A stretch of DNA of 64,000 nucleotides from Dysgonomonas mossii DSM 22836 (GTDB lineage: Bacteria; Bacteroidota; Bacteroidia; Bacteroidales; Dysgonomonadaceae), in assembly GCF_000213575.1 (NCBI RefSeq), contig NZ_GL892009.1, positions 186,001 through 250,000 of the forward strand, written 5' to 3'. A model generated the notes under the pieces. It was not told the DNA's origin and did not search any database. It saw only the letters and a list, made by a program, of their open reading frames with translations. This document shows positions 811 through 12,678 of this stretch, in pieces. How positions within the stretch are numbered: position 1 is the stretch's first letter; each line of letters starts with the position of its first letter. Position numbers and translations under genes: made by a program.

Positions 811-1563
811 TCAGTGGCTATGGCCATTCTGTAGTCCTATGTAATAGATGAAAGCTAGCCCTGATAGAATAAAAATAATATTTACAGCCAGATTTTTCTT
901 GGTAGTATCCCGTAATATTTCCGGAATTAAACAGCCCGTAGCCAGATAAATAAAACCTCCGGCTGCTACGGGAAGCATATATATAGAAAAATGGGCGATT
1001 TGAGTTCCTATCCAAAGAGCTATCGCTGTTCCCAATATTGCTGTACAAGCTGAAATGAAATTAAATAGCAAAGCCTTACGTTTATTAAATCCGGCACGGA
1101 GCAATATGCCAAAATCGCTGATTTCCTGAGGTATTTCATGCAAGATTATACCTAGTGTTGTAGCCAGACCCAGTTCCGGGCTGAACATCCATGTCGCACC
1201 AATGAGTATACCGTCTACAAAATTGTGTATTCCATCGGCATAGAGGCTCAAATATCCATATGGTTTGATAGTCTTTTTGTTTCCATGGTTGATATGTATT
1301 AATTGTTCCATTACAAAAAACACTAAAAAACCTCCGAGGATGAACCATGAAGTTATTGCGGCTGATTCCATGTGAAAATAAGATTCCGGCACTAGCTGGA
1401 AAAAAGCATTTCCCAATAAGGTACCTATAGCAAAGCAAATCAGGAGATTTAAAATTCCGCTTAATTTGTCCGATTTAAAATATAAAAGAAATACCCCGAC
1501 AAATGACAGGGCACTGACAAAACATGCGCTTAATATCGCATATAAAGCATTATTAATTTCCAT
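811..1563 (-). CDS. ZIP-family divalent metal (zinc) transporter
   Basis: A 250-residue, highly hydrophobic protein with about eight membrane segments, the usual size for bacterial ZIP (ZupT-like) transporters. The two signature metal-site helices are present: HNFVDG with H113, N114 and D117, and HEIPQE with H142, E143, Q146 and E147. The loop before the first signature holds HINHGN, a short histidine cluster. ZIP proteins import Zn2+ (sometimes Fe2+ or Mn2+) across the inner membrane into the cytosol. It is the last gene of the leftward operon that begins at 3975, 21 bases after the DUF3299-like gene. The context with Zur-type regulators and COG0523 GTPases makes zinc the likely substrate. 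Confidence 0.9.
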   Translation of the reverse strand: MEINNALYAILSACFVSALSFVGVFLLYFKSDKLSGILNLLICFAIGTLLGNAFFQLVPESYFHMESAAITSWFILGGFLVFFVMEQLIHINHGNKKTIKPYGYLSLYADGIHNFVDGILIGATWMFSPELGLATTLGIILHEIPQEISDFGILLRAGFNKRKALLFNFISACTAILGTAIALWIGTQIAHFSIYMLPVAAGGFIYLATGCLIPEILRDTTKKNLAVNIIFILSGLAFIYYIGLQNGHSH

Positions 1564-1584
1564 ATCTGTAGTTGTAATTTTAAT

Positions 1585-2037
1585 TTATTTAATAACGCGT
1601 ACCAGTTCTGCATCATATAGCATATACATCAAATGGTAAGGGTCATTTCTGTTTAGTCGTAGAATTCCTTTTATTTCAATATATTTATCTGTTTTGACTC
1701 GCTTTAGTTCCTTGTGGCCTTTTTTTACAAATATCTCCATAACGGTTTCTATACCTCCCGTGCCACAGAAGAAACACATGTTTGACGGAGATTTAGAAAG
1801 GGCAAATATTTTGCCTTCCATATCAATCGGCACATAAAAACCTTTAATCAATATCTCTTTATTGTTGAGAGCTTCAATGCTCGCTCCAAAACGTGCTACA
1901 TCATAATATCCATCCAACGCTTTAACATAGCTGCGTTTCCACGTTACATCATTCAATGCCTGCCAGGCAATGGCTTTCTGGGCTTTTACCGAACAAAAAC
2001 AACAAATGAAAATTATAGCAAAAAATACTTTCTTCAT
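1585..2037 (-). CDS. Secreted DUF3299-like protein of a zinc ABC system
   Basis: A 150-residue protein with a signal peptide (about residues 1-19, ending in VKA-Q). The mature part has a beta-rich domain with a GFYVPIDMEG segment and then CFFCG (C88, C91), features of the DUF3299 family. From memory, DUF3299 proteins accompany FtsX-type ABC transporters in zinc-regulated operons of Pseudomonas (PA4063-PA4066) and Vibrio (zrg genes). The biochemical role is unknown; the cysteine pair could bind metal or act in redox. The start codon overlaps the end of the permease gene by four bases (ATGA at 2037-2034), so the two are translationally coupled. Confidence 0.7.
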   Translation of the reverse strand: MKKVFFAIIFICCFCSVKAQKAIAWQALNDVTWKRSYVKALDGYYDVARFGASIEALNNKEILIKGFYVPIDMEGKIFALSKSPSNMCFFCGTGGIETVMEIFVKKGHKELKRVKTDKYIEIKGILRLNRNDPYHLMYMLYDAELVRVIK

Positions 2038-3323
2038 TGACTTAATGTTTTTGAGATATTTGTTTTCATTGCTTTAATAGCGGGAATTATTGCAGCAACT
2101 ATACCAATGATCAAAGAAGCGATCAATAAAGAAAGATCCGTAGGAGTTACCCATTGTTGCAATGTGTAATTAAAGTTATTATCAGTATAGGTAGATAGAG
2201 CAAACATCACAAAACGGCTGGCCACAAATCCGACAATATATCCGATAATAGCAAAACTAATCCCTTCCAGAATAACGATAACAAACAATCGGAATCGACT
2301 TCCTCCCATAACGCGTATTAAAGCCAATTCATATTTTCTTTCTTTTAAGGAGTTCAGAAGAGAGATAAATATACTCAAGGCTGAGATTAGGATTATAAAT
2401 CCGCTTATATAAGTCAAAGCTTCTATCCCAAGCCCCAACAAGGAATACAGGCGATTTATTTCCTGTACGGGAGATGCAGCCTGCATATTTGTCGACTTAT
2501 TGATAAGACGCGGCAGGCTGATAGCACCCATCGGATTTTGGTACCGGATCAACAATGTTGTTATTTCTTTAGGATGCTCCCCTTCCTCGTGTTCACGTTC
2601 CTCATGGCTGTGATCACAATCTGCATCGTGCTCGTGCTCATGTCCCCCATCCGTATCATGCTCATGATCTTTTTCTGCCTCGTTATGCTCATGATGATGC
2701 TCATGACTATCATGTATTTTCCATACACTCTCAATATTGGTTAAGATCAATTGGTCGAGCACCGTTCCAGTTTCTTTAAAGATGCCCGTTACTGTATAAG
2801 GAGTACTCTCATGTACATCATCCGACTCTGCCGATAGCCCGTGTACCCCTGCAAATTGCCGGCCTATTACTAAGCCTGTTTTTGAGGCGACTTTCGAACC
2901 TATCGTTGCCTCAAAGTCTTTTTGCCACAAGCTTCCCGCTTGTATTTGTCCATTATAAATAGTGGGGTATGCCTTATTGGTTCCAACTATGCGGAATCCG
3001 TTAAAGTTATCTCCAAGGGCAAGAGGAATAGCCTGTTTTATCAAGGGATTCTTGCTCAGTTCTATTGACTCATTATAATCTATATTTCCGGTTGGATAAT
3101 CTACATGATAAATACCGGATAGTATCAGTTGTAGAGGGCTACCTTTAGCCCCCACTACAAGGTCAATTCCTCCGGCATTTTTATCCATTTGGTTTTCAAA
3201 TGAGTCTTTAAGGAGGAAAACCAAAGAGATAATAGTAACTCCGGTTGCAAAAAGAATTATATTCAAAACCGAGGATAACGGACGGCTCTTTATTTGTTTG
3301 AAGTTGAATTGTATAATATTCAT
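2034..3323 (-). CDS. FtsX/MacB-type ABC permease with histidine-rich loop
   Basis: A 429-residue permease of the LolC/MacB/FtsX type: one N-terminal membrane segment (about residues 18-38), a large periplasmic domain, and three C-terminal membrane segments (about 300-325, 343-372 and 393-418). Residues 204-250 form an insert with 15 histidines among Asp and Glu, and one cysteine. Such a loop is not part of ordinary LolC or MacB proteins and is a probable Zn2+-binding segment. It pairs with the ATPase encoded 10 bases upstream. FtsX-type permeases usually do not carry small solutes through a channel; they transmit force or extrude periplasmic substrates. Whether this one moves zinc, a zinc-binding protein or a lipoprotein is open. 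Confidence 0.85.
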   Translation of the reverse strand: MNIIQFNFKQIKSRPLSSVLNIILFATGVTIISLVFLLKDSFENQMDKNAGGIDLVVGAKGSPLQLILSGIYHVDYPTGNIDYNESIELSKNPLIKQAIPLALGDNFNGFRIVGTNKAYPTIYNGQIQAGSLWQKDFEATIGSKVASKTGLVIGRQFAGVHGLSAESDDVHESTPYTVTGIFKETGTVLDQLILTNIESVWKIHDSHEHHHEHNEAEKDHEHDTDGGHEHEHDADCDHSHEEREHEEGEHPKEITTLLIRYQNPMGAISLPRLINKSTNMQAASPVQEINRLYSLLGLGIEALTYISGFIILISALSIFISLLNSLKERKYELALIRVMGGSRFRLFVIVILEGISFAIIGYIVGFVASRFVMFALSTYTDNNFNYTLQQWVTPTDLSLLIASLIIGIVAAIIPAIKAMKTNISKTLSQ

Positions 3324-3333
3324 GTCTGTTTTT

Positions 3334-3975
3334 TTAAGATTCTAAATGAACGATTTTTGAGAAATCCGGAATAAGCCTGTTGTCATGTGTAACGATTACC
3401 AACCCCGCCTGAAGTTTTTCAGCCTGGTAGCGAAGCAGCTTTATAGCTTCTCTACAATTTTTATCATCAAGGCTGGATGTCGGTTCATCTGCGAGGATTA
3501 GCGAGGGTTTATTTATAACAGCCCGTGCTATAGACAGGCGTTGTAATTCTCCCTGACTCATCTCATTTGTTTTACGATTCCGACAATGACTTATATTCAA
3601 AGTATCGAACAGGATATCCAGATACACATTATCTACAGATAGCTTACTAAGGGATACTGTCATCTTTAGATTTTCCTCTGCTGTTAACGATTTTATAAAT
3701 TGAGGAGTTTGAAAAACAATTCCGATTTGCCGTCCTCTGTATTTATCCAACTTGGTACCTCTTAATTGAGCAATGTCATTTCCTTTTATCAAAATACTCC
3801 CCCTTTTGGGTGTAATCAAACCCGCAATCAGGTGAAGCAATGTTGTTTTCCCACAACCCGAAGCCCCGGTAATAAGTAAATGTTCTCCTTTTTCACAAAC
3901 AATATCCGGAAACACGAACGTATAGTTCTTATTATAAGAATATTGAACACTATTTGTTATTAAGTTTTTTTCCAT
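3334..3975 (-). CDS. ABC transporter ATP-binding protein (LolD/MacB-like)
   Basis: ATPase of 213 residues when started at the ATG at 3975 (MEKNLITN). An earlier possible ATG at 3996 lies inside the predicted -7 promoter box, so the shorter start is preferred. Walker A is GASGCGKTT (37-45), the signature is the variant MSQGE (139-143) instead of LSGGQ, Walker B ends in LADEPTSSLD (161-170), and the H-loop is VTHDNR. It is the first gene of the leftward zinc operon and energises the adjacent His-loop permease. Transcription probably starts at the TACATTTG box at 4001-3994, next to the palindrome at 4029-4055, so zinc repression is likely. Confidence 0.9.
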   Translation of the reverse strand: MEKNLITNSVQYSYNKNYTFVFPDIVCEKGEHLLITGASGCGKTTLLHLIAGLITPKRGSILIKGNDIAQLRGTKLDKYRGRQIGIVFQTPQFIKSLTAEENLKMTVSLSKLSVDNVYLDILFDTLNISHCRNRKTNEMSQGELQRLSIARAVINKPSLILADEPTSSLDDKNCREAIKLLRYQAEKLQAGLVIVTHDNRLIPDFSKIVHLES

Positions 3976-3993
3976 AACCAATAAAATTTTCAA

Positions 3994-4001
3994 CAAATGT
4001 A
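3994..4001 (-). promoter_or_regulatory. -7 box of the leftward zinc operon
   Basis: On the minus strand this reads TACATTTG, matching the Bacteroidetes -7 consensus TAnnTTTG. A TTG lies 18 bases upstream (minus strand) and a second TTG 21 bases upstream, both at the left edge of the palindrome at 4029-4055. The ATPase start at 3975 is about 20 bases downstream. Confidence 0.6.
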
Positions 4002-4028
4002 ATTATTTTTCTTTATCCGCAACAATGT

Positions 4029-4055
4029 TGCAAATGAATTTATATTACATTTGCA
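4029..4055. promoter_or_regulatory. Putative Zur box between divergent zinc operons
   Basis: A 27-base interrupted palindrome: TGCAAATG (4029-4036), an 11-base AT-only spacer, and CATTTGCA (4048-4055). The symmetry extends outward, with ACAATG before and CATTGT after, offset by two bases. AT-rich palindromes of this size are typical Fur/Zur operators. The right half-site overlaps a TACATTTG -7 box on the plus strand (4046-4053), and the left edge touches the -33 region of the leftward promoter. A bound dimer would therefore block both operons. Assignment to the regulator encoded immediately downstream is inference. Confidence 0.65.
4046..4053 (+). promoter_or_regulatory. -7 box of the rightward zinc operon
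   Basis: TACATTTG matches TAnnTTTG and overlaps the right half of the palindrome at 4029-4055. The regulator start codon at 4090 is 37 bases further on. The -33 element is less clear; a TTG at 4028-4030 is somewhat close. Confidence 0.5.
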
Positions 4056-4089
4056 TTGTCAATTCATTTCAGATTTAAAATACATCATT

Positions 4090-4500
4090 ATGGAATCTGT
4101 CAAAGAAATATTACACAGGAATAATTTAAAAGGAACATCAGCCCGTATCGCCATCTTGAATACGATTATAGGCAGTGAGGCTCCTTTGAGTGAATCTGAT
4201 ATAAAAAAAAGAATACATGAAATTGACAGGGTAACATTCTATCGCTCAATTAAAAGTTTGTTGGATACGAAGATTATTCAGGGCATAATCACCCAAAGAA
4301 AAATAATCAAATACACCTTCTGTCATGAGAATCATAGCAGTGAAACATCAGTCCGGTTTTATTGTACCGAGTGTAAAAAACTGACAGACGTGGAGATAGA
4401 AGCCCAGATTCCTGTTGTTCCGCAAGGATATACGGAAAAAACATGCAGTATAACTATAACCGGAATTTGCAAAGCATGTAATAATTCAGATGAAGATTAA
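4090..4500 (+). CDS. Fur/Zur-family metalloregulator (first copy)
   Basis: A 136-residue Fur-family repressor when begun at the ATG at 4090 (MESVKEIL). A start further upstream would lie inside the operator. The winged-helix part (about 1-75) includes the family stretch DRVTFYRSIKSL. The C-terminal dimer domain has two CxxC pairs, CTEC (92-95) and CKAC (127-130), which form the structural zinc site. CHENHSSE at 78-85 gives candidate regulatory metal ligands, although the classical HHDH motif is not conserved. Operon context with zinc chaperones and transporters favours Zur over Fur or PerR. It heads the operon and probably represses itself and the divergent genes through the palindrome at 4029-4055. 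A paralogue of the same length lies at 11782-12192. Confidence 0.85.
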   Translation: MESVKEILHRNNLKGTSARIAILNTIIGSEAPLSESDIKKRIHEIDRVTFYRSIKSLLDTKIIQGIITQRKIIKYTFCHENHSSETSVRFYCTECKKLTDVEIEAQIPVVPQGYTEKTCSITITGICKACNNSDED

Positions 4501-4541
4501 CGAGTGTCGCAATTTAACATTAAAATATAAAAGAGTCGATA

Positions 4542-4829
4542 ATGAAAGAGATCAAAGAAGAATATAAATTAATTGAATTCTATGCAAATTGGTGTGTTTC
4601 ATGCCACATACCCGAGATCACTACAGCCTCAATAGAGAAGAAAAATGAGAATCTTAATATTCAAAGAATAGATATAGATTCCAATCCGGATCTAACCCTA
4701 CAGTTTGGAGTTCGCTCTATACCTGCATTGACACTTCTTAGAGGAGAAACTGAAATTTGGAGATATTCAGGTCTGATATCCGAATCTGAACTGGTTTCCG
4801 TATTAGCAAAGCATTTAAATAATAAATAA
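4542..4829 (+). CDS. Thioredoxin-like protein (CVSC active site)
   Basis: A 95-residue protein with no signal peptide, so cytosolic. It has the thioredoxin core: FYANWCVSCHIPE (C18 and C21 in a WCVSC variant of WCGPC), the R-I-D-I-D strand, and the cis-proline segment RSIPALTLLRG. It is slightly shorter than E. coli TrxA. It lies 41 bases after the Zur-like gene and 6 bases before the next gene, so it is part of the zinc operon. A plausible job is to keep cysteine ligands of metallochaperones or of the CPIC protein reduced when zinc is scarce. That role is inferred from position only. Confidence 0.85.
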   Translation: MKEIKEEYKLIEFYANWCVSCHIPEITTASIEKKNENLNIQRIDIDSNPDLTLQFGVRSIPALTLLRGETEIWRYSGLISESELVSVLAKHLNNK

Positions 4830-4835
4830 AACAAG

Positions 4836-5471
4836 ATGGAAGTAAGCAATCTATTTTATGGGATACTCGCTGCATTAGGCTATGTATTACTGCAATCGAT
4901 GTTTATTGTTGGTGTGCGAATAGCTGCCGATGACAGCACTGAAATTTTACCCAACGGAAAACAAAGAGATCGTATGGGGATGATATTATATCCGGTTTTA
5001 AAATACCTGAGTCGAACAAAACAGGAAAAAATATACTATGAGGGTTCTCAGTTTACGAGTTTAATCAGCAAGATTAGGATGGCGATACCTGATTTGGCTA
5101 TAATTGAAGGAGATGGCCGATTGAAAATTATAAGCAGAGGGCGGTCTTTAGGGATATATTCTAATAAGATAGAAGATACACTCTATCACATTGACAACAG
5201 GATAAAGATAGAGATGGAAGAGGGACTACTTCGGTTTTACAGAATGGACGAGCAATACCGACTCAATAAATACCTGCGGAAACCTATTCTTCAATGTCCT
5301 ATCTGTATGTCTTCAGTCTGGAGTATACCCAGTTATTGGATACCCATTATATATAAGTTCGGCTTTAATATGGAGGTACTATATCTGGGAGCGGTTAATA
5401 TCTGTGTGGTAGCTTGCGTCAATGCCCTGATCTGGGTGAAATTCAAATCCATGCAGAAATCATTAATGTAA
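4836..5471 (+). CDS. Unrecognised membrane protein with a CPIC motif
   Basis: A 211-residue protein I do not recognise. It has one hydrophobic segment at the N-terminus (about 6-30), a soluble middle of about 120 residues rich in charged and aromatic residues, then CPIC (C154, C157) immediately before a hydrophobic C-terminal region (about 160-202) that can hold one or two membrane segments. The CxxC pair next to the membrane could bind zinc or form a disulfide with the thioredoxin encoded just upstream. It is 22 bases before the first GTPase gene and clearly co-transcribed. Similar small membrane proteins with a CxxC before a hydrophobic tail occur in phages, so a borrowed phage gene is possible. 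Confidence 0.6.
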   Translation: MEVSNLFYGILAALGYVLLQSMFIVGVRIAADDSTEILPNGKQRDRMGMILYPVLKYLSRTKQEKIYYEGSQFTSLISKIRMAIPDLAIIEGDGRLKIISRGRSLGIYSNKIEDTLYHIDNRIKIEMEEGLLRFYRMDEQYRLNKYLRKPILQCPICMSSVWSIPSYWIPIIYKFGFNMEVLYLGAVNICVVACVNALIWVKFKSMQKSLM

Positions 5472-5493
5472 AACAAATTATCAAATCAAAACA

Positions 5494-6465
5494 ATGAAGG
5501 GCAAAATCCCCGTAACGATAATAACCGGCTTTCTAGGAGCTGGAAAGACTACTCTTATCAATAACCTGATAAAGAAGCACCCTGATAAAAAGTTTGCTAT
5601 TATCGAAAATGAATTTGGCGAAATTGGCTTGGACGGGAGTTTCATTATCGGAGCTGATGAAAACATATTCGAACTGTCCAACGGATGCATCTGTTGTTCG
5701 TTGAACACCGATTTTTATGAACTGATCAATAAGTTACAAACAGGAGGATATGATTTCAACCATTTATTGATTGAAACAACAGGTATAGCAGATCCTACAT
5801 CGATCGTAAATGCTTTTCTTTCCGATTATGAGATCATCGAACGTTTTACTATTGATTCAGTTATCTGTCTGGCGGATGCTGTCAACATTGAAGATCTGAT
5901 AGACTCGGAACCGGAAGCCCGTAAACAATTAACTATAGCTGACATTATCTTATTGAACAAAATAGATTCGGTAAGGCAAGGTTACTGTGATGGGCTAATG
6001 AGTAGAATACAGGATTTTAACCAACTGGCTACGATATATCCGACTTCACAGGCAGATATTTCACAGTTGGAAATTCTGGATACTTGCCAGTATTCGGGCA
6101 GGAAAATAGAACAATCGGTTTCGACTTTTAAAAATCTTGCCTTTCTGGGAAGTAATAATCTAAAGCATGATATCAAATCAATTGGAATCTCCATTCCCGG
6201 AGATCTTGATTTTGAGCGTTTCCGCTTCTGGTTTGAGACAATTCTCTATTTTGCCAAGTACAGGCCATACCGGGTAAAAGGGATTCTCAGTTTTAAAGAT
6301 GTACCCGAAAAATGTATTCTGCATGCGATAAAAGATAATTATGTCTTTGACAGGGGCGATTTGTGGCAGCAAGACGAAGATCGTTATTGCAAGCTCGTAT
6401 TTATCGGTCGTAATCTGGATAATCTGGAAATAGAAGAAAATATATACAAATTAAGAGCAGAATAA
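5494..6465 (+). CDS. COG0523 (CobW-like) GTPase, putative zinc chaperone 1
   Basis: A 323-residue G3E-family GTPase. The P-loop is GFLGAGKTT (12-20), the family metal-binding motif CICC is at 65-68, the switch region contains ETTGIADPTS, and the guanine specificity motif is NKID. The C-terminal CobW domain ends near residue 320. Members of COG0523 deliver metals to client enzymes; those under Zur control (ZigA/ZagA/ZNG1 group) hand over zinc during starvation. The client here is unknown. A second paralogue follows after 15 bases. The two differ in C-terminal length, which suggests different clients rather than redundancy. Confidence 0.88.
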   Translation: MKGKIPVTIITGFLGAGKTTLINNLIKKHPDKKFAIIENEFGEIGLDGSFIIGADENIFELSNGCICCSLNTDFYELINKLQTGGYDFNHLLIETTGIADPTSIVNAFLSDYEIIERFTIDSVICLADAVNIEDLIDSEPEARKQLTIADIILLNKIDSVRQGYCDGLMSRIQDFNQLATIYPTSQADISQLEILDTCQYSGRKIEQSVSTFKNLAFLGSNNLKHDIKSIGISIPGDLDFERFRFWFETILYFAKYRPYRVKGILSFKDVPEKCILHAIKDNYVFDRGDLWQQDEDRYCKLVFIGRNLDNLEIEENIYKLRAE

Positions 6466-6480
6466 TAAACTAAAAAAACA

Positions 6481-7671
6481 ATGAATAAGATACCTGTAAC
6501 AGTCTTAAGTGGCTTTTTAGGAGCCGGAAAGACAACCATATTAAATCATATACTCAATAACCGGGAGAATATGAAAGTAGCTGTCATAGTCAACGATATG
6601 AGCGAAGTCAATATCGATGCACAGTTAGTGGAAAAAGGTTCGGCACTTTCCCGCACAGAGGAAAAACTGGTACAACTCAGCAATGGATGTATCTGTTGTA
6701 CTCTGCGTGATGATCTGGTAAAAGAAGTAACCCGCTTAGTTGAAAACGGCAAGTTCGATTATCTGCTAATAGAAGGAACGGGTATTGCAGAACCTATGCC
6801 GATAGCCCAGTCATTCAGCTATGCTTTCGAAGACTTGGGTGTTGATCTGACTAAAATTTCACGTCTGGATACAATGGTAACAGTTGTTGATGGCTTTAAT
6901 TTTTATAATGACTTCGGATCATCCGAAACATTAACAGACAGGGATCCAGACAATACGATCAGCGAACGTTCCATAGTAGACCTCCTCGTGGAACAAATTG
7001 AATTTGCGAATGTCATCGTACTGAATAAAGTAGACCTGATCTCGGCCCATCAACAAGAAGAGATGAAACATATTATCCGAAAACTAAATCCGGATGCAAA
7101 GATTATTCAAGCTGATCATGGAAAGATTGATCCGAAAGAAATACTAAATACCCATTTATTTGATTTTGCTGAGGCTGCTCAAAGTTCGGGCTGGCAGAAA
7201 GAACTACAGAATAAGCATACTCCCGAAACAGATGAATACGGCATCGGTTCATTTGTGTTTCGTGAGCATCGCCCTTTACACCCCAGAAGATTCAAGGAAT
7301 ATCTCAGCAAAAACTGGGATACAGGTATTGTACGTAGCAAAGGATTCTTCTGGCTGGCAAGCCGAAAGAATGAGGCATTATTACTAAGTCAGGCCGGAGG
7401 TTCTATCGTGGTGGAACGTATCGGTTCATGGTGGGCTTCTTTTCCAACAAAAGAAAGAAATCAACATCCTTCGTTTCAGGCAAATGAGGAATATATCATG
7501 GGTCGTTGGGATAAGACATGGGGTGACCGGATGAATGAGATTGTATTCATCGGACAAGATATGGATGAGCAAAAGATCAGAAAAGAAATGGAATACTGTC
7601 TCTGTACAGACATTGAATATAATGCTTATCAGAATGAACTGCTAACAGATAATAACTGGGATTTCTTATAA
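6481..7671 (+). CDS. COG0523 (CobW-like) GTPase, putative zinc chaperone 2
   Basis: A 396-residue G3E GTPase with GFLGAGKTT (11-19), CICC (70-73) and NKVDL. It is longer than its neighbour and has the extended C-terminal domain with [10 protein letters not shown], a WWASFP stretch and a [16 protein letters not shown] ending. This is the architecture of the Zur-regulated ZigA/ZagA type. The predicted role is GTP-dependent zinc transfer to essential zinc enzymes in the cytosol under limitation. It lies 12 bases before the TonB receptor gene, in the same operon. Confidence 0.88.
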
Positions 7672-7683
7672 AGAAAAGGTCTA

Positions 7684-10029
7684 ATGAAATTTACTTATAC
7701 ACTACTGACACTCGTTTTATGCTGTTTCACTTTATCAGCTCAATCTTCATTCAAAATCAGTGGGTTTGTGATGAATGAAGATAGGATGCCGGTAGAAGCA
7801 GTATCTATTTCTGTGGTAGGGAATAACAATACAATACAAAGTGACCAAAATGGCTTTTTTGAACTTACTTTGGCTGCTTCGGGGACTATAATACTTCATA
7901 TTGATGCTCTGGGATATTTTCCTCAGTCAACACAATTAAGCGTAAGTAATAATATACATCGCGACTTTATTCTCAGAAAGAATAATATAGAGTTGGAAGA
8001 GGTCGTTGTCAGCGGAAACAATAAGAGAAGTCTTCAAATGAAATCAGCTCAAAATCTCGTTCAGGTTGATAAATCATATATCGAAGATAATTTCTCCGGT
8101 AGCCTGATGCAAAGTCTGGAGAAAATACCGGGAGTCAGAGCGATGACTATCGGTTCGGGACAGTCCAAGCCTGCTATCAGAGGACTTGGTTTCAACAGGA
8201 TGATGGTTACCGAGAATGGAATCAAGCACGAAGGACAGCAATGGGGCGAAGATCACGGATTGGAAATAGATCAGTTTTCGGTAGATGATATTGAAATCTT
8301 AAAAGGTCCGGGTTCTCTATTATACGGAGGCGATGCCATAGGTGGAGTAATCAGTTTACGTAATAATTATGTCCCTTCAGCTAAAATCGAAGGAAATATA
8401 AATCTCTATGGCAGAAGCAATAATGAGTCACTTGGTTTTTCCGGTCAGATAGCAGGACGAAAGAATCGATTTTATTATAAAGTGAATGCCACCTATGTGG
8501 ATTATGGAGATTACAAAGTTCCTACTGATAGCATACAGTATTATTCTTATTACATAAAACTAAAGGACAGACGACTCAGAAATACTGCCGGAAAAGATCG
8601 GAACGCCGGAATTACACTCGGATATATTGATAAAAACTTTAGAAGTAACTTTCTGATATCTGATGTATATTCAAAGAGTGGCTTCTTTGCCGATGCACAT
8701 GGTCTTGAAGTGCGCATGTCCGATATCGACTATGACAAATCCTCCAGGGATATCAACCTGCCCTATCATTCGGTAAACCATTTCAAAGTAATCAACAACT
8801 CCCATTTGCAGATCGGGACATTACATCTTGATGGTAATTTTGCTTATCAAAATAATCTGAGAAAGGAACTGTCAGAACCCGTATCGCATGGATATATGCC
8901 TATCCCACCCGATGCTTTGGAGCGTAAGTTTAATAAGAATACATACACATCCAATATCTCCTTCAAACTACCATTCAAGAACAAGCACTCTCTGCAAGGA
9001 GGCATTAATGTCGAACATCAACATAACTCAAGAGGCGGATGGGGCTTCATTATTCCAGACTTTCGGACAACAGGTATAGGAGCTTTCCTCTATGACCGCT
9101 ACTTACTGTCCGAAGATTTAATTCTCAGTGCAGGTATACGTGCCGACCAAACGAATATTCATATAGACAGTTATCACGATTGGTATCAGGCTCCTGTGGA
9201 AAATGGAGATTGGGTATATAAAGAGCGGGCTGCCAATCTGAAAAGGAGTTTCAATAGTTTCACATGGTCGGCAGGCATTAATTACAATATAGACAGTTGG
9301 ATGCTTAAAGCCAATGTGGGTAAAAGTTTCCGTGCTCCTACTCCCAAAGAACTAGGTTCTGATGGGGTAAACTATCACATTTTCCGTTACGAAAAAGGAG
9401 ATAAGAACCTGAATGCAGAAGAGTCTTATCAAATAGACTTCGGGATTAACTGGAAAAATGATGTTCTGGATATCCAGATAGAACCTTACCTGAACTATTT
9501 CCCCAACTATATCTACCTGAACCCGACGTCGGGTTATTACGAAGGTTTACAGATGTATTATTATACACAGGCTAAAGTAATAAGATACGGATTTGAAGCC
9601 AGTTTAGAATACAAACCCACCCAACAGATCACATTAGGATCACAAGGTGAATATTTGTATGCAGAGCAGCTTTCCGGAGATAAGAAAGGTTATACGCTTC
9701 CGTTTTCTCCACCGTGGTCTTGCAACTTTACAGCTGCTTATCACCCCAAGAACAAAATATTCGGAACGGATAGCGATATTCAGCTAGAGTATAATATAAC
9801 AGGAGCGCAGGACAGAATTGTACCCCCTGAAAACAAAACAAAAGGATATCAAACTATAAATATATCGATAGGGCGTAGCTGGCAAATCAATCAAAACAGA
9901 ATAAAATTACGTCTGCAGGGGCAAAATCTATTGAATAAGCGGTATTACGATCATACAAGTTATTACCGGCTGATAGATGTTCCCGAACCGGGACGGAATA
10001 TATCAGTTATGATCGGATATAATTTTTAA
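7684..10029 (+). CDS. TonB-dependent outer-membrane receptor, ZnuD-like
   Basis: A 781-residue receptor with a signal peptide ending in LSAQ (about residue 20), a carboxypeptidase-like beta domain (about 22-100), a TonB plug (about 110-230) and a 22-strand barrel region ending in aromatic F. The plug contains a polar loop, GQQWGEDHG, which resembles the metal-binding region of Neisseria-type ZnuD. It is 781 residues, shorter than the SusC-type receptors in this window (over 1000), as expected for a small-ligand receptor. It sits within the zinc operon between the GTPase and DUF4625 genes. TonB-driven zinc uptake across the outer membrane is the most likely role; a chelated metal ligand is possible. 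Confidence 0.85.
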   Translation: MKFTYTLLTLVLCCFTLSAQSSFKISGFVMNEDRMPVEAVSISVVGNNNTIQSDQNGFFELTLAASGTIILHIDALGYFPQSTQLSVSNNIHRDFILRKNNIELEEVVVSGNNKRSLQMKSAQNLVQVDKSYIEDNFSGSLMQSLEKIPGVRAMTIGSGQSKPAIRGLGFNRMMVTENGIKHEGQQWGEDHGLEIDQFSVDDIEILKGPGSLLYGGDAIGGVISLRNNYVPSAKIEGNINLYGRSNNESLGFSGQIAGRKNRFYYKVNATYVDYGDYKVPTDSIQYYSYYIKLKDRRLRNTAGKDRNAGITLGYIDKNFRSNFLISDVYSKSGFFADAHGLEVRMSDIDYDKSSRDINLPYHSVNHFKVINNSHLQIGTLHLDGNFAYQNNLRKELSEPVSHGYMPIPPDALERKFNKNTYTSNISFKLPFKNKHSLQGGINVEHQHNSRGGWGFIIPDFRTTGIGAFLYDRYLLSEDLILSAGIRADQTNIHIDSYHDWYQAPVENGDWVYKERAANLKRSFNSFTWSAGINYNIDSWMLKANVGKSFRAPTPKELGSDGVNYHIFRYEKGDKNLNAEESYQIDFGINWKNDVLDIQIEPYLNYFPNYIYLNPTSGYYEGLQMYYYTQAKVIRYGFEASLEYKPTQQITLGSQGEYLYAEQLSGDKKGYTLPFSPPWSCNFTAAYHPKNKIFGTDSDIQLEYNITGAQDRIVPPENKTKGYQTINISIGRSWQINQNRIKLRLQGQNLLNKRYYDHTSYYRLIDVPEPGRNISVMIGYNF

Positions 10030-10096
10030 CACAATACACTAAGTATTATTTATTCTCTAACCGGGCATATATAGCCCACTTAATTAATTAAATGTT

Positions 10097-11191
10097 ATGA
10101 AACAAAAATTTCTATGGGGAACAATCCTTTTTCTAAGTACGTCATTATTCATCTTTACATCATGTAGCAGTGATGACGATGATGACAATCCGGCAAAACC
10201 GGTTATAAACCTGACTGAAGTCGGTAGTGAAAATAGCAAGATTGGAGTTGCCGGAAGCGATCTGCATCTGGAAGGCACTATCGTGGCTGATGGGATGATA
10301 AAGCAAATTGATGTTGAAATTCATCAGGAAAGTGGAGGCAGCTTTAAAATTGAAGAATCATATAAAGACGGGAAATATATCGGAGTAAAGAATGCCGATT
10401 TCCACGAGCATATCGATATTCCGGCTGATGCTCCTGCGGGAGATTATCACCTGCATTTTACAGTAACTGATCAATTCGGACAAACAACAACGGTAGAGTC
10501 GGAACTGACTATCGAAGCTGAACCTGTGAATATTAGTATAGACGGTTTGACTTTCGGAGCAGGACATGATTTTGCTGATAATAAGATCGGATATATCGGT
10601 ACTGCCCCTGTTGTAGAGGCTACATCTATTAAAGCTGAAAATGGAATTGACAAGATATTTGTAGAAATTCACAGCGAAGGCGAAACATCTGCTTTTGAAC
10701 TCGATACAACTTATACTTATGCCGGTGAAACGGAATTAATAGATTTCCACAAACATCTCTCTATTCCAGAAAACACTCCGGCCGGCGATTACCATTTACA
10801 TTTCAAAGTATATGATAAGAACGGTAAATCATTGGAAAAATCAATGGATGTAGAAATTAAAGAAACAGGAATCGCAATATCCGGTTTAGAAATAGGAAGC
10901 GCTAATTCGGCAGTAGCATCTAATATCCATACCGAATTTAAGGTAAATGCTTCAGATCCTTTGACCTCTATTCGTGTCCGTATTTATAAAGCTGCAACTC
11001 CGACAACCTATGTATTCAATGAGACATATTCTGATGAGTTTGCGACCGGAGATGTAAAAGAGTACACTTTTCATAAACATTTGAAAGCAACCGGTGCTGC
11101 AGAAGGAGAATATGTAATTGAGATAAGAACAAATGATGCGAAAGGAGCCAATAAAACCATAAAGGAAAAATTGACCATTACAGGAGCATAA
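10097..11191 (+). CDS. DUF4625 surface lipoprotein with three His-rich repeats
   Basis: A 364-residue lipoprotein: hydrophobic signal with lipid cysteine C23, then SSDDDDD, an acidic stretch of the kind that sends Bacteroidetes lipoproteins to the outer leaflet. Three tandem repeats of roughly 110 residues follow, each with an Ig-like look. Repeats 1 and 2 share the pattern F-H-(E/K)-H then AGDYHLHF about 15 residues later; repeat 3 keeps FHKHL but has GEYVIEI in place of the HLH part. These histidines could form zinc sites. DUF4625 has no established function known to me. Position right after a ZnuD-like receptor suggests surface zinc capture and delivery, as inference. Confidence 0.75.
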   Translation: MKQKFLWGTILFLSTSLFIFTSCSSDDDDDNPAKPVINLTEVGSENSKIGVAGSDLHLEGTIVADGMIKQIDVEIHQESGGSFKIEESYKDGKYIGVKNADFHEHIDIPADAPAGDYHLHFTVTDQFGQTTTVESELTIEAEPVNISIDGLTFGAGHDFADNKIGYIGTAPVVEATSIKAENGIDKIFVEIHSEGETSAFELDTTYTYAGETELIDFHKHLSIPENTPAGDYHLHFKVYDKNGKSLEKSMDVEIKETGIAISGLEIGSANSAVASNIHTEFKVNASDPLTSIRVRIYKAATPTTYVFNETYSDEFATGDVKEYTFHKHLKATGAAEGEYVIEIRTNDAKGANKTIKEKLTITGA

Positions 11192-11254
11192 TAAATTATA
11201 AGATATCAATAGCGAATAGTTTTGAAAAAGAACTATTCGCTAAAAATAAAGAAT

Positions 11255-11737
11255 ATGATAAATAGAAAAATCATTTTATACTCTCTTGTTTGCCTTTTTG
11301 TTATGGGATGTAGCAACGACGATGATGATAGTCAGGATATGGAAAAACCTTCCATCGATATGAGTGGCAGCAATGCTTTTCCTCAGAATTGTATCGTTTT
11401 ATATCGGGGTGAAAGCTTTCCATTTAGAGCGGTATTTGCTGATAATCAGGAATTGGGAAACTATAATATCGAAATACATAATAATTTCGATCATCATTCT
11501 CACAGTACGGATGATGTGGAGTGCGATCTGGAGTCAAAAAAAACTCCTGTAAAGGCATTCGTTTACAATCAGGATTTCACTATTCCTTCGGGTAAAAATA
11601 CTTATCAAGCCAATAATGAAATTTCTATACCCTCAGATGTAGATACAGGAGATTATCATTTTATGATTCGGTTGACAGATAAGGCCGGATGGCAACAGTT
11701 GAAAGCTATAAGCCTGAAAATAAAAGATAAAAATTGA
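11255..11737 (+). CDS. Short DUF4625-like His-rich lipoprotein
   Basis: A 160-residue lipoprotein when started at the ATG at 11255 (MINRKIIL). An upstream in-frame TTG at 11222 would spoil the signal peptide. Lipid cysteine C19 is followed by SNDDDD, a surface-export type signal. It holds a single DUF4625-like unit with a denser histidine patch, FDHHSHSTDD, and the family ending GDYHFMIRLTDKAGW. It probably arose from the same ancestor as the three-repeat protein upstream and ends the operon, just before a symmetrical terminator. The predicted role is surface zinc binding. Confidence 0.7.
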   Translation: MINRKIILYSLVCLFVMGCSNDDDDSQDMEKPSIDMSGSNAFPQNCIVLYRGESFPFRAVFADNQELGNYNIEIHNNFDHHSHSTDDVECDLESKKTPVKAFVYNQDFTIPSGKNTYQANNEISIPSDVDTGDYHFMIRLTDKAGWQQLKAISLKIKDKN

Positions 11738-11751
11738 AATTCTTTGTATTT

Positions 11752-11790
11752 AAAACCGAATATATTAAATTGTATTCGGTTTTATTTTTT
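11752..11790. terminator. Bidirectional rho-independent terminator
   Basis: Stem AAAACCGAATA (11752-11762) pairs perfectly with TATTCGGTTTT (11773-11783) around a 10-base loop. T-runs lie on the right for the zinc operon, and A-runs before the stem serve the convergent Fur-like gene. The stop codon of that gene (11784-11782) is within the stem. Confidence 0.8.
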
Positions 11791-12192
11791 CATACAATCG
11801 GGACAAATTCCTTCAAGTAAAACTTGAGCAGAATCAACTTTATAACCAGATGGCAAGTGAAGGTTTCTATCCAATAAAGACGAATCTAGACAAGTTACCT
11901 TATCACAGCTAGTACAATGAAAATGAGGATGTATTTTTGACAGAACTAAAAGACTGCTTAGGGCATATTTGACCGTATTATTATTCAAGACAATGCGATG
12001 TATCACTTTGGCTTCTTCTAATGTTTTAAGAGAGCGGTAGAAAGTGACACGATCGAATAAGCCTGAAAATGCATCTTTGATTTCATTTTCAGTTAAAGCT
12101 GTATCATCGCTTTCGATCAGTTTATCTATAATACATTTACGACAAACTGTCTTTTTTATTCCATGTTGTTTTAATATCTGTTCTGCATTCAT
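11782..12192 (-). CDS. Fur/Zur-family metalloregulator (second copy)
   Basis: A 136-residue Fur-family protein from the ATG at 12192 (MNAEQILK); an alternative ATG lies two codons upstream. It matches the first copy in length and in the stretch DRVTFYRSLKTL. Structural zinc cysteines are CTSC (93-96) and CPDC (130-133), and HPHFH (88-92) gives candidate regulatory ligands nearer to the classical Fur pattern than in the first copy. It faces the zinc operon and shares its terminator. It may be a second zinc sensor with a different set-point, or a peroxide or iron sensor. I see no operator like the 4029-4055 palindrome upstream of it. Confidence 0.85.
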   Translation of the reverse strand: MNAEQILKQHGIKKTVCRKCIIDKLIESDDTALTENEIKDAFSGLFDRVTFYRSLKTLEEAKVIHRIVLNNNTVKYALSSLLVLSKIHPHFHCTSCDKVTCLDSSLLDRNLHLPSGYKVDSAQVLLEGICPDCMKK

Positions 12193-12429
12193 GATCATTC
12201 TTTTTACAAAAATAATAAAAAGCCTCATATTAACTTATTAGATTTTTGACAGAATATTCAAAAGGGAAATATATAAATCAATTAGTTAATTTCTGAAATT
12301 ATTATCTACAGGAGTTCATTAATACTTCTAGGTATTCAAATAAGTTAAAATACCAAGAAATGCTGATTGTACTATTTCGTTTATAGTTGTTATTTTGGAT
12401 TCAAATAATGAACATTGTTCTCTATTGAA

Positions 12430-12678
12430 ATGAGGGTATTAAAAGACGATAAATATAGATCTATAATAGGATCTGCCCGAAAGGAGTTTATACTAAGAGG
12501 CTTTAAAGATGCATCCATGCGTACTATTGCAAAGGATGCAAATGTAGGATTGAGCAATATTTATAACTATTTCAAGAATAAAGATGAAATATTTCTTGAA
12601 ATAGTATCACCTGCCACGGATGATTTGTTTGCTTTTGTAAAAGACAAACATACAGAAAAGTATATAGACTTCAATTAA
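12430..12678 (+). pseudogene. Truncated TetR-family regulator
   Basis: The frame from the ATG at 12430 (MRVLKDDKY) encodes 82 residues: a complete TetR N-terminal DNA-binding domain with the helix-turn-helix DASMRTIAKDANVGLSNIYNYF, shown here as DASMRTIAKDANVGLSNI followed by YNYFKNKDEI. It then stops at 12678 just after the start of the ligand-binding domain. Normal TetR proteins have about 190-210 residues, so roughly 60 percent is missing. The stop falls next to an unrelated-looking segment and a tRNA gene, which suggests a deletion or insertion scar. A short DNA-binding-only protein could still be made, but no dimer domain would be present. Confidence 0.7.

Follow-up and report, generated by a model that had tools for sequence, protein, structure and literature searches.

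Does a run of thirteen genes in Dysgonomonas mossii DSM 22836 (genome of 3.95 Mb) form a single zinc-starvation response, and which of its less familiar products belong to it? The genes lie at positions 811-12228 of the window, the whole stretch of 64,000 nucleotides that was analysed (contig NZ_GL892009.1, positions 186,001 to 250,000). We consider that the island is probably two modules stacked under one operator. The core module would consist of an operator-like box, a TonB-dependent receptor, two lipoproteins of the DUF4625 family (DUF4625a and DUF4625b) and a Fur-family protein, Fur2. The added cassette would consist of Fur1, a thioredoxin, a membrane protein with a CPIC motif and the COG0523 GTPases CobW1 and CobW2, reading rightward, and of an ABC ATPase, an FtsX-type permease, a DUF3299-like protein and a ZIP transporter, reading leftward. 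Numbers beginning with G and L are our handles for genomes and loci.

Gene arrangement and the operator-like box

Four genes read leftward (ABC, FtsX, DUF3299-like and ZIP, in that order), eight rightward (Fur1, thioredoxin, CPIC, CobW1, CobW2, receptor, DUF4625a and DUF4625b), and Fur2 is convergent. They exist as an initial annotation had listed them, as open reading frames (ORFs), most of them with matches to Pfam families. The intra-operon gaps of -4 to +67 bp in the ORF listing and a terminator-like hairpin between the convergent genes (11751-11784, no strand assigned; a 14-pair stem and a T run) fit two divergent operons and one single gene. Since a hairpin scan of the window found 9 where 7.3 were expected, only the place of this hairpin and its 14-pair stem support it. 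The two divergent operons first described stand for both arms, but Fur2, the last gene, forms a unit of its own on the minus strand and faces the rightward operon across the hairpin. The arrangement is not due to chance, since Dysgonomonas sp. BGC7 (G011; L013/L081) has an island in the same gene order, its proteins 86-98% identical one by one. BGC7 and the metagenome assembly Dysgonomonas UBA7710 are the nearest named relatives with the same locus. Genes to the left of the island (L012) had no match to island proteins except two common ABC ATPases.

The gap between the ABC and Fur1 genes contains a palindrome, CGCAACAATGTTGCA (4018-4032, no strand assigned), which could control both operons; it is the only match in the window at no more than one mismatch. 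The -7 promoter element TACATTTG occurs on either side of it, at 3994-4001 on the minus strand for the leftward operon (16 bp from the box) and at 4046-4053 on the plus strand for the rightward operon (13 bp from the box). The element type at both promoters, TAnnTTTG, is what we take to be the Bacteroidota-type -7 element.

We searched for the box as TGCAACNNNGTTGCA and counted sites with at most one mismatch; a genome scan at two mismatches (130 sites, 74 in the control) was dropped as too noisy. In the D. mossii genome there are seven sites, five of them within genes, and the two intergenic ones are the ABC-Fur1 gap and the promoter of a second DUF4625 locus (L051). A scan of 84,980 species genomes gave at least 573 DUF4625 relatives, and the best 80 of these at least 573 loci were used. 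Eight loci were dropped from scoring, as they had no module gene on the plus strand or lay too close to the end of a contig; among the other 72 receptor/DUF4625 modules, 22 have a box upstream, compared with 10 of 888 control upstream regions. Over all 80 loci (1,366,279 bases) we counted 39 boxes, of which 32 adjoin labelled module genes, 4 precede an unlabelled ORF of 113-117 aa just upstream of the receptor, and 3 lie elsewhere. The exact box occurs at 19 sites over ten chosen genomes, in eight of the ten, and the reversed pattern at none. Two of the 19 are inside called ORFs, one a 316-aa gene (L184) and the other a 109-aa ORF (L179) that overlaps a receptor promoter and is probably spurious. 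Of the 45 boxes from 87 sources, six of which had been selected for their boxes, 28 have a -7 element no more than 25 bp away, compared with 5.4% of 4000 control draws; the spacing is 13 or 16-17 bp in 24 of the 28. The single palindrome between the arms, recurring at related loci, supports the claim that both operons belong to one response.

As in the Zur regulons of other phyla, a Fur-family gene lies beside a palindrome at an uptake-gene promoter, and a shared operator is present, by sequence alone, at the promoters that it would regulate. The box, TGCAACAnTGTTGCA, is distinct from the E. coli motif given in a 2018 review, the main text of which has no word starting with "Bacteroid" (PMC6103462).

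Two Dysgonomonas genomes, G002 and G003, have the box, receptor, DUF4625a, DUF4625b and Fur2 only, with no cassette, and it is from these that our view of a core with a cassette derives. The island as a whole appears to be assembled from stacked modules, since CobW and DUF3299-like genes are rarely found physically beside DUF4625 genes.

The DUF4625 lipoproteins and their receptor

DUF4625a (10097-11191, plus strand) has three Ig-like domains and matches PF15418 in three stretches (1.4e-43), and DUF4625b (11258-11737, plus strand; ORF listed from TTG 11222) has one such domain (1.8e-43). Their scores of 149 and 148 bits are well above the gathering cut-off of 27. The structural models are confident (pLDDT 90.9 and 88.6) and contain three and one beta-sandwich domains, respectively. 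In a fold search with DUF4625b the nearest structures were generic Ig-like sandwiches, with TM of at most 0.54 among the 50 matches listed, and PDB sequence searches likewise returned generic Ig-like sandwiches.

These proteins had been called His-rich, which they are only mildly (15 of 364 residues in DUF4625a, 5 of 171 in DUF4625b), but most of those histidines are conserved. Invariant residues are D55, H57, H103 and H105 in DUF4625a (15 proteins aligned) and H86, D90, H92, H94 and H146 in DUF4625b (14 proteins aligned), as read from alignments of loci found by profile or CPIC search (A1/A2), not from the motif-fetched alignment (A4). A lipobox-like motif is present in 106 of the 129 proteins examined. 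Applying to the residues after the lipoprotein Cys what we assume to be the exact rule of the Bacteroidetes surface-export signal, we found two or more acidic residues among the next seven in 102 of these 106. The acidic signal resembles the published one (PMC5080379).

The receptor gene (7684-10029, plus strand) encodes TonB plug and barrel domains and is of the ZnuD/hemin-receptor class. The best NCBIfam model for the receptor is that of ZnuD, the TonB-dependent receptor of Neisseria, so that the initial "ZnuD-like" has some basis, but a soft one: the 153 bits to NF038289 are far below its cut-off of 950 and compare with 129 bits to the hemin-receptor model. The island receptor differs from ZnuD in carrying an extra CarboxypepD-like domain at its N-terminus and in having DUF4625 lipoproteins encoded next to it.

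A DUF4625 match was found in 15 of 247 Bacteroidota genomes, 12 of them over the cut-off, and within the genus Dysgonomonas in 15 of 25. In a profile-based sample, a homologous receptor lies beside DUF4625 in 11 of the 15 stretches fetched. In 74 of the 80 loci, and in 64 of the 67 with full flanks, DUF4625 has a receptor of at least 40% identity no more than 5 kb away, compared with 1 of 70 distant 5-kb segments; the linkage is higher than in the profile sample because the 80 were chosen as the window protein's nearest relatives. Two or more DUF4625 ORFs occur together in 53 of the 80, and a Fur gene lies within 5 kb in 21. The expected co-occurrence of DUF4625 with COG0523 and DUF3299 is seen as an excess at the genome level, uncorrected for phylogeny, with CobW_C in 5 of 12 genomes (1.9 expected, p 0.026) and DUF3299-like proteins in 5 of 12 (1.5 expected, p 0.008; one, in G101, is a weak partial match), but physical adjacency is rare, with CobW genes at 2 and a DUF3299-like gene at 3 of the 80 loci.

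An adjacent receptor gene and a lipoprotein with a predicted export signal are also what is seen in XusAB, BtuBG and SusCD of the Bacteroidota, in which a receptor gene is next to surface-lipoprotein genes; the arrangement is similar to those reported for XusB/XusA and BtuG/BtuB (PMC12574912, PMC6143338, PMC10404256). DUF4625 differs in being an Ig-like sandwich with conserved histidines, with no SusD-like fold among the matches listed, and in its predicted cargo, zinc. Receptor linkage, conserved histidines and the surface signal together give good support to the proposal that DUF4625 is a newly recognised component of the response to starvation for a metal, most likely zinc. An open-access search found no literature on DUF4625.

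A second DUF4625 locus in the same genome (G000:C4:168195-171792; L051:8195-11792) contains Fur3, the box TGAAACAATGTTGCA, a small protein with the motif HxxCxxC...RAPP, a receptor (37% identity) and DUF4625. Small proteins of this type (101-124 aa, with a His, a CxxC pair and a C-terminal RAPP or RPPP) are encoded just upstream of the receptor or module at L051, L052, L058-L063 and many of L081-L160, or 39 of the 80 loci by blastp, and are absent from the window island; three that were scanned matched no Pfam family over the cut-off. Genes for GTP cyclohydrolase I and MerC are neighbours of a Fur gene and of an exact box at L052:13731-14781 (PF01227 and PF03203 in the L052 copies) and L063:8263-9322. 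At L083, from Bacteroides propionicifaciens, relatives of DUF4625b and Fur2 are adjacent, and for about 10 kb around them there is no homologous receptor. In Flavobacterium loci the receptor is followed by a 400-aa lipoprotein (Lp406; L059:6109-7329) with only a sub-cut-off match to a beta-propeller, and a 55% identical relative of Lp406 has an exact box in G242 (L180).

The regulators and the cassette

Two Fur-family proteins are encoded in the island. Fur1 (4090-4500, plus strand; ORF listed from TTG 4051) matches PF01475 at 26 bits (9.6e-6) and lacks the HxHF motif, which carries metal ligands in the Fur family. Fur2 (11782-12192, minus strand; ORF listed to 12228; PF01475, 1.6e-10) has an intact HPHF and both CxxC pairs, as would a metal-site repressor of a Zur-type regulon, and it adjoins the receptor/DUF4625 core in G002 and G003 also. 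HxH[F/L/M] is present in 30 of the 33 distinct Fur-like ORFs of 110-200 aa from the fetched loci and missing from the two Fur1 copies and a weak match, L106. The Fur1 ORF of G019 is only 84 aa. Because Fur1 lacks the motif while Fur2 keeps it and stays with the core, Fur2 or Fur3 is likelier to be the sensor than Fur1. The first Fur-like gene, named earlier as the regulator, is probably the wrong choice, and the regulator deletion proposed would move away from it. Beyond Fur2, at 12415-12678, is a short TetR-type ORF of 87 aa with the DNA-binding domain alone, possibly truncated.

CobW1 (5494-6465, plus strand; PF02492 8.9e-51, PF07683 2e-14) and CobW2 (6481-7671, plus strand) both have the CobW and CobW_C domains. 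CobW2 is ZigA-like, aligning over nearly the full length of NF038288 with 540 bits (next model 168 bits), and differs from ZigA in falling below the 600-bit cut-off and in being preceded by a second, different COG0523 GTPase. In Acinetobacter baumannii, zigA is reported to be in the Zur regulon (PMC6103462).

The leftward arm begins with the ABC ATPase (3334-3996, minus strand; PF00005 3.1e-33; TTG start listed, with an ATG inside), which partners the FtsX/MacB-type permease (2034-3323, minus strand; PF02687 1.5e-11). The 15-His loop ascribed to the permease is exact, with 15 histidines within the 50 residues 204-253. The next protein (1585-2037, minus strand), with a signal-like N-terminus, is a divergent member of DUF3299 related to ZrgE and PA4066. 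Pfam, an own-genome search and a PDB sequence search all failed to assign it directly; the assignment is held through homologues, 12 of the 21 members of the alignment of the window protein and its homologues (A7) matching PF11736 (best 9.5e-9). The arm ends with the ZIP-family metal transporter (811-1563, minus strand; PF02535 1.1e-39), which among the loci fetched accompanies the island in the window and in BGC7 (G011/L081) alone.

Of the 247 Bacteroidota genomes, 30 encode DUF3299-like proteins, 39 encode CobW_C and 13 encode both, compared with 4.7 expected (Fisher 1e-4). By their coordinates the two are within 15 kb of each other in 9 of the 13, which bears out their postulated linkage; in a tenth, G274, the matches are weak overlapping fragments with stops. 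An FtsX homologue lies beside the best DUF3299-like match in 19 of the 30 genomes (1.5-kb flanks).

The FtsX-type permease, separate ABC ATPase and DUF3299 protein, the last recognised only through homologues, are the set found in the Zur-controlled operons ZrgABCDE of Vibrio and PA4063-PA4066 of Pseudomonas aeruginosa. The island differs in that its His-rich stretch is inside the permease, its DUF3299 protein is highly divergent, and no counterpart of ZrgD or of the His-rich periplasmic ZrgA/PA4063 protein was recognised among its ORFs (ORF list and Pfam). In zinc-poor V. parahaemolyticus the Zur-controlled DUF3299, permease and ATPase genes are reported to be up 76, 105 and 148 fold (PMC9817125). 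The P. aeruginosa counterpart of the FtsX/ABC unit is reported to be a MacB-type exporter; the products of PA4063-4066 are reported to move, and argued to export, a pyochelin-cobalt complex, and deletion of the permease gene PA4065 is reported to raise cellular cobalt (PMC11481552). By analogy the FtsX/ABC unit may be an exporter, and because of this argument it should not be called a zinc importer.

Which metal, and what the island may do

Zinc is the most likely metal, judging from the gene families: the ZigA-like CobW2, the DUF3299/permease/ATPase set, ZIP and the ZnuD-leaning receptor. Several observations weigh against a zinc operator serving a receptor/DUF4625 module. The receptor scores barely separate ZnuD from hemin receptors, and their order is reversed for a Flavobacterium receptor (L122). 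Four of the 15 stretches in the profile sample (L054, L057, L064 and L065) have no homologous receptor in the stretch covered. Fifty of the 72 modules, many in Prevotellaceae and Paludibacteraceae records, lack a close box just upstream; seven of the 50 have one further upstream, at the operon start or before the preceding gene (L081, L082, L128, L130, L134, L152 and L160). The box sites and loci, drawn as they are from related genomes, with several genera sampled repeatedly, are not independent of one another. The ZnuA gene of D. mossii itself, elsewhere in the genome, has no box; its gene run includes an ABC ATPase, no permease was identified, and the neighbouring ORFs are presumably coaE- and carbonic-anhydrase-like. 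Given this ZnuA homologue and the possible export role of the FtsX/ABC unit, "complete" was too strong a word for the island. Finally, a variant of the box, the sister box TGCAACT..GTTGCA, is found close to genes encoding a P-type metal ATPase, an RND pump and a further Fur protein (L178, L182 and L176), so more than one metal regulator may share the palindrome, and efflux genes may be regulated through an operator almost the same as this one.

The box could instead be bound by a Fur-family protein other than Zur, answering a different or broader metal signal (cobalt, copper, iron or heme, or general metal stress). We regard this as unlikely. The closeness of the receptor to hemin-receptor models, the variant near P-type ATPase and RND efflux genes, the MerC-type genes near several boxes and the reported cobalt-pyochelin cargo of PA4063-4066 (PMC11481552) would all agree with it; however, the genes for a ZigA-like GTPase and for DUF3299, permease and ATPase are Zur targets elsewhere (PMC9817125, PMC6103462), and PA4063-4066 is itself Zur-controlled (PMC11481552).

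The stacking could also be fortuitous, the core being a real zinc system and the cassette (Fur1, Trx, CPIC, COG0523 and the FtsX unit) serving something else, which we consider improbable. The occurrence of the core alone in G002 and G003 is consistent with this, as is the distribution of the CPIC protein (4836-5471, plus strand). It belongs to no family in Pfam or NCBIfam (PHROGs best E 0.65). By score it is in 5 of 81 genomes, D. mossii included, two of these being a 23-aa remnant and a 26% identical partial match; full-length copies are in 3 of 81, again counting D. mossii, and one of the three is in a decayed locus. The metagenome assembly G019 retains only the 23-aa CPIC remnant and its short Fur1 ORF. 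In the decayed cassette of G046 (L014; G046:C13) the Fur1 region has no long ORF, CobW1 is a short fragment, a transposase-like ORF splits ABC from FtsX, and the 20 kb covered contain no receptor and one weak 77-aa DUF4625-like match. Against a fortuitous stacking, one and the same box lies between both arms. In G082, which has no DUF4625 match, a box separates a ZigA-like CobW gene from a divergently oriented DUF3299-like gene, unlinked to any core, and in Massilibacteroides (L086) a box lies between the ABC-FtsX-DUF3299 arm and the receptor/DUF4625 core, with the right-hand cassette absent. The CPIC protein, proposed as a new part of the response, is rejected as a conserved part on its distribution. 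The thioredoxin-like protein (4542-4829, plus strand; WCVSC, PF00085 6.3e-15) is missing at the core loci L243 and L244 and at L015.

That the FtsX/ABC/DUF3299 unit with its His loop imports zinc directly is likewise improbable, for in spite of that loop and of the reported aid to zinc acquisition by ZrgA of the homologous Vibrio operon (PMC9817125), the permease is of the FtsX/MacB type and PA4064-4065 are argued to be an exporter (PMC11481552).

The initial annotation is thus partly supported: its outline holds for DUF4625, COG0523 and DUF3299, its inclusion of CPIC finds no support, and its choice of Fur1 as regulator is probably mistaken. Gene content, the box with its spacing and recurrence, the linkage of receptor to DUF4625 and the conservation of the histidines are observations. 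For the two stacked modules under one operator we propose the following, in which we infer the zinc, the direction of regulation and every transport step. With zinc present, a zinc-loaded Fur-family dimer, most likely of Fur2 or else Fur3, would sit on CGCAACAATGTTGCA and block both promoters, and as zinc falls it would leave. Surface DUF4625 would then bind zinc or a zinc carrier through its conserved histidines and pass the cargo to the receptor, in the manner of XusB/XusA and BtuG/BtuB. Entry across the inner membrane would be through ZIP, perhaps also through the products of the ZnuA/ABC-ATPase genes elsewhere in the genome. The FtsX/ABC/DUF3299 unit would do periplasmic work, probably by mechanotransmission, and the COG0523 GTPases would deliver scarce zinc to client proteins.

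A wider proposal, which we offer tentatively, is that DUF4625 proteins are widespread surface zinc-capture lipoproteins of the Bacteroidota, the metal-ion counterpart of XusB and BtuG, and load dedicated TonB-dependent receptors. They would do so under an undescribed Bacteroidota Zur operator (TGCAACAnTGTTGCA at a -33/-7 promoter), where Fur1 would be a metal-blind paralogue competing with the true sensor. We found neither a zinc operator nor a dedicated zinc receptor-lipoprotein module for the Bacteroidota in the parts of the open-access literature searched, and nothing on Zur, Bacteroides and COG0523 together. The closest Bacteroidota report, on ZntR of Riemerella, goes no further than listing some TonB-dependent receptors as candidates (PMC11960050). 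Specialists would find the operator and the module of DUF4625 and receptor useful, and new in their details, the kind of system being known. The box, the regulator pair and the module are direct targets for expression, DNA-binding and metal-binding work, and the module offers the uncharacterised DUF4625 domain its first function.

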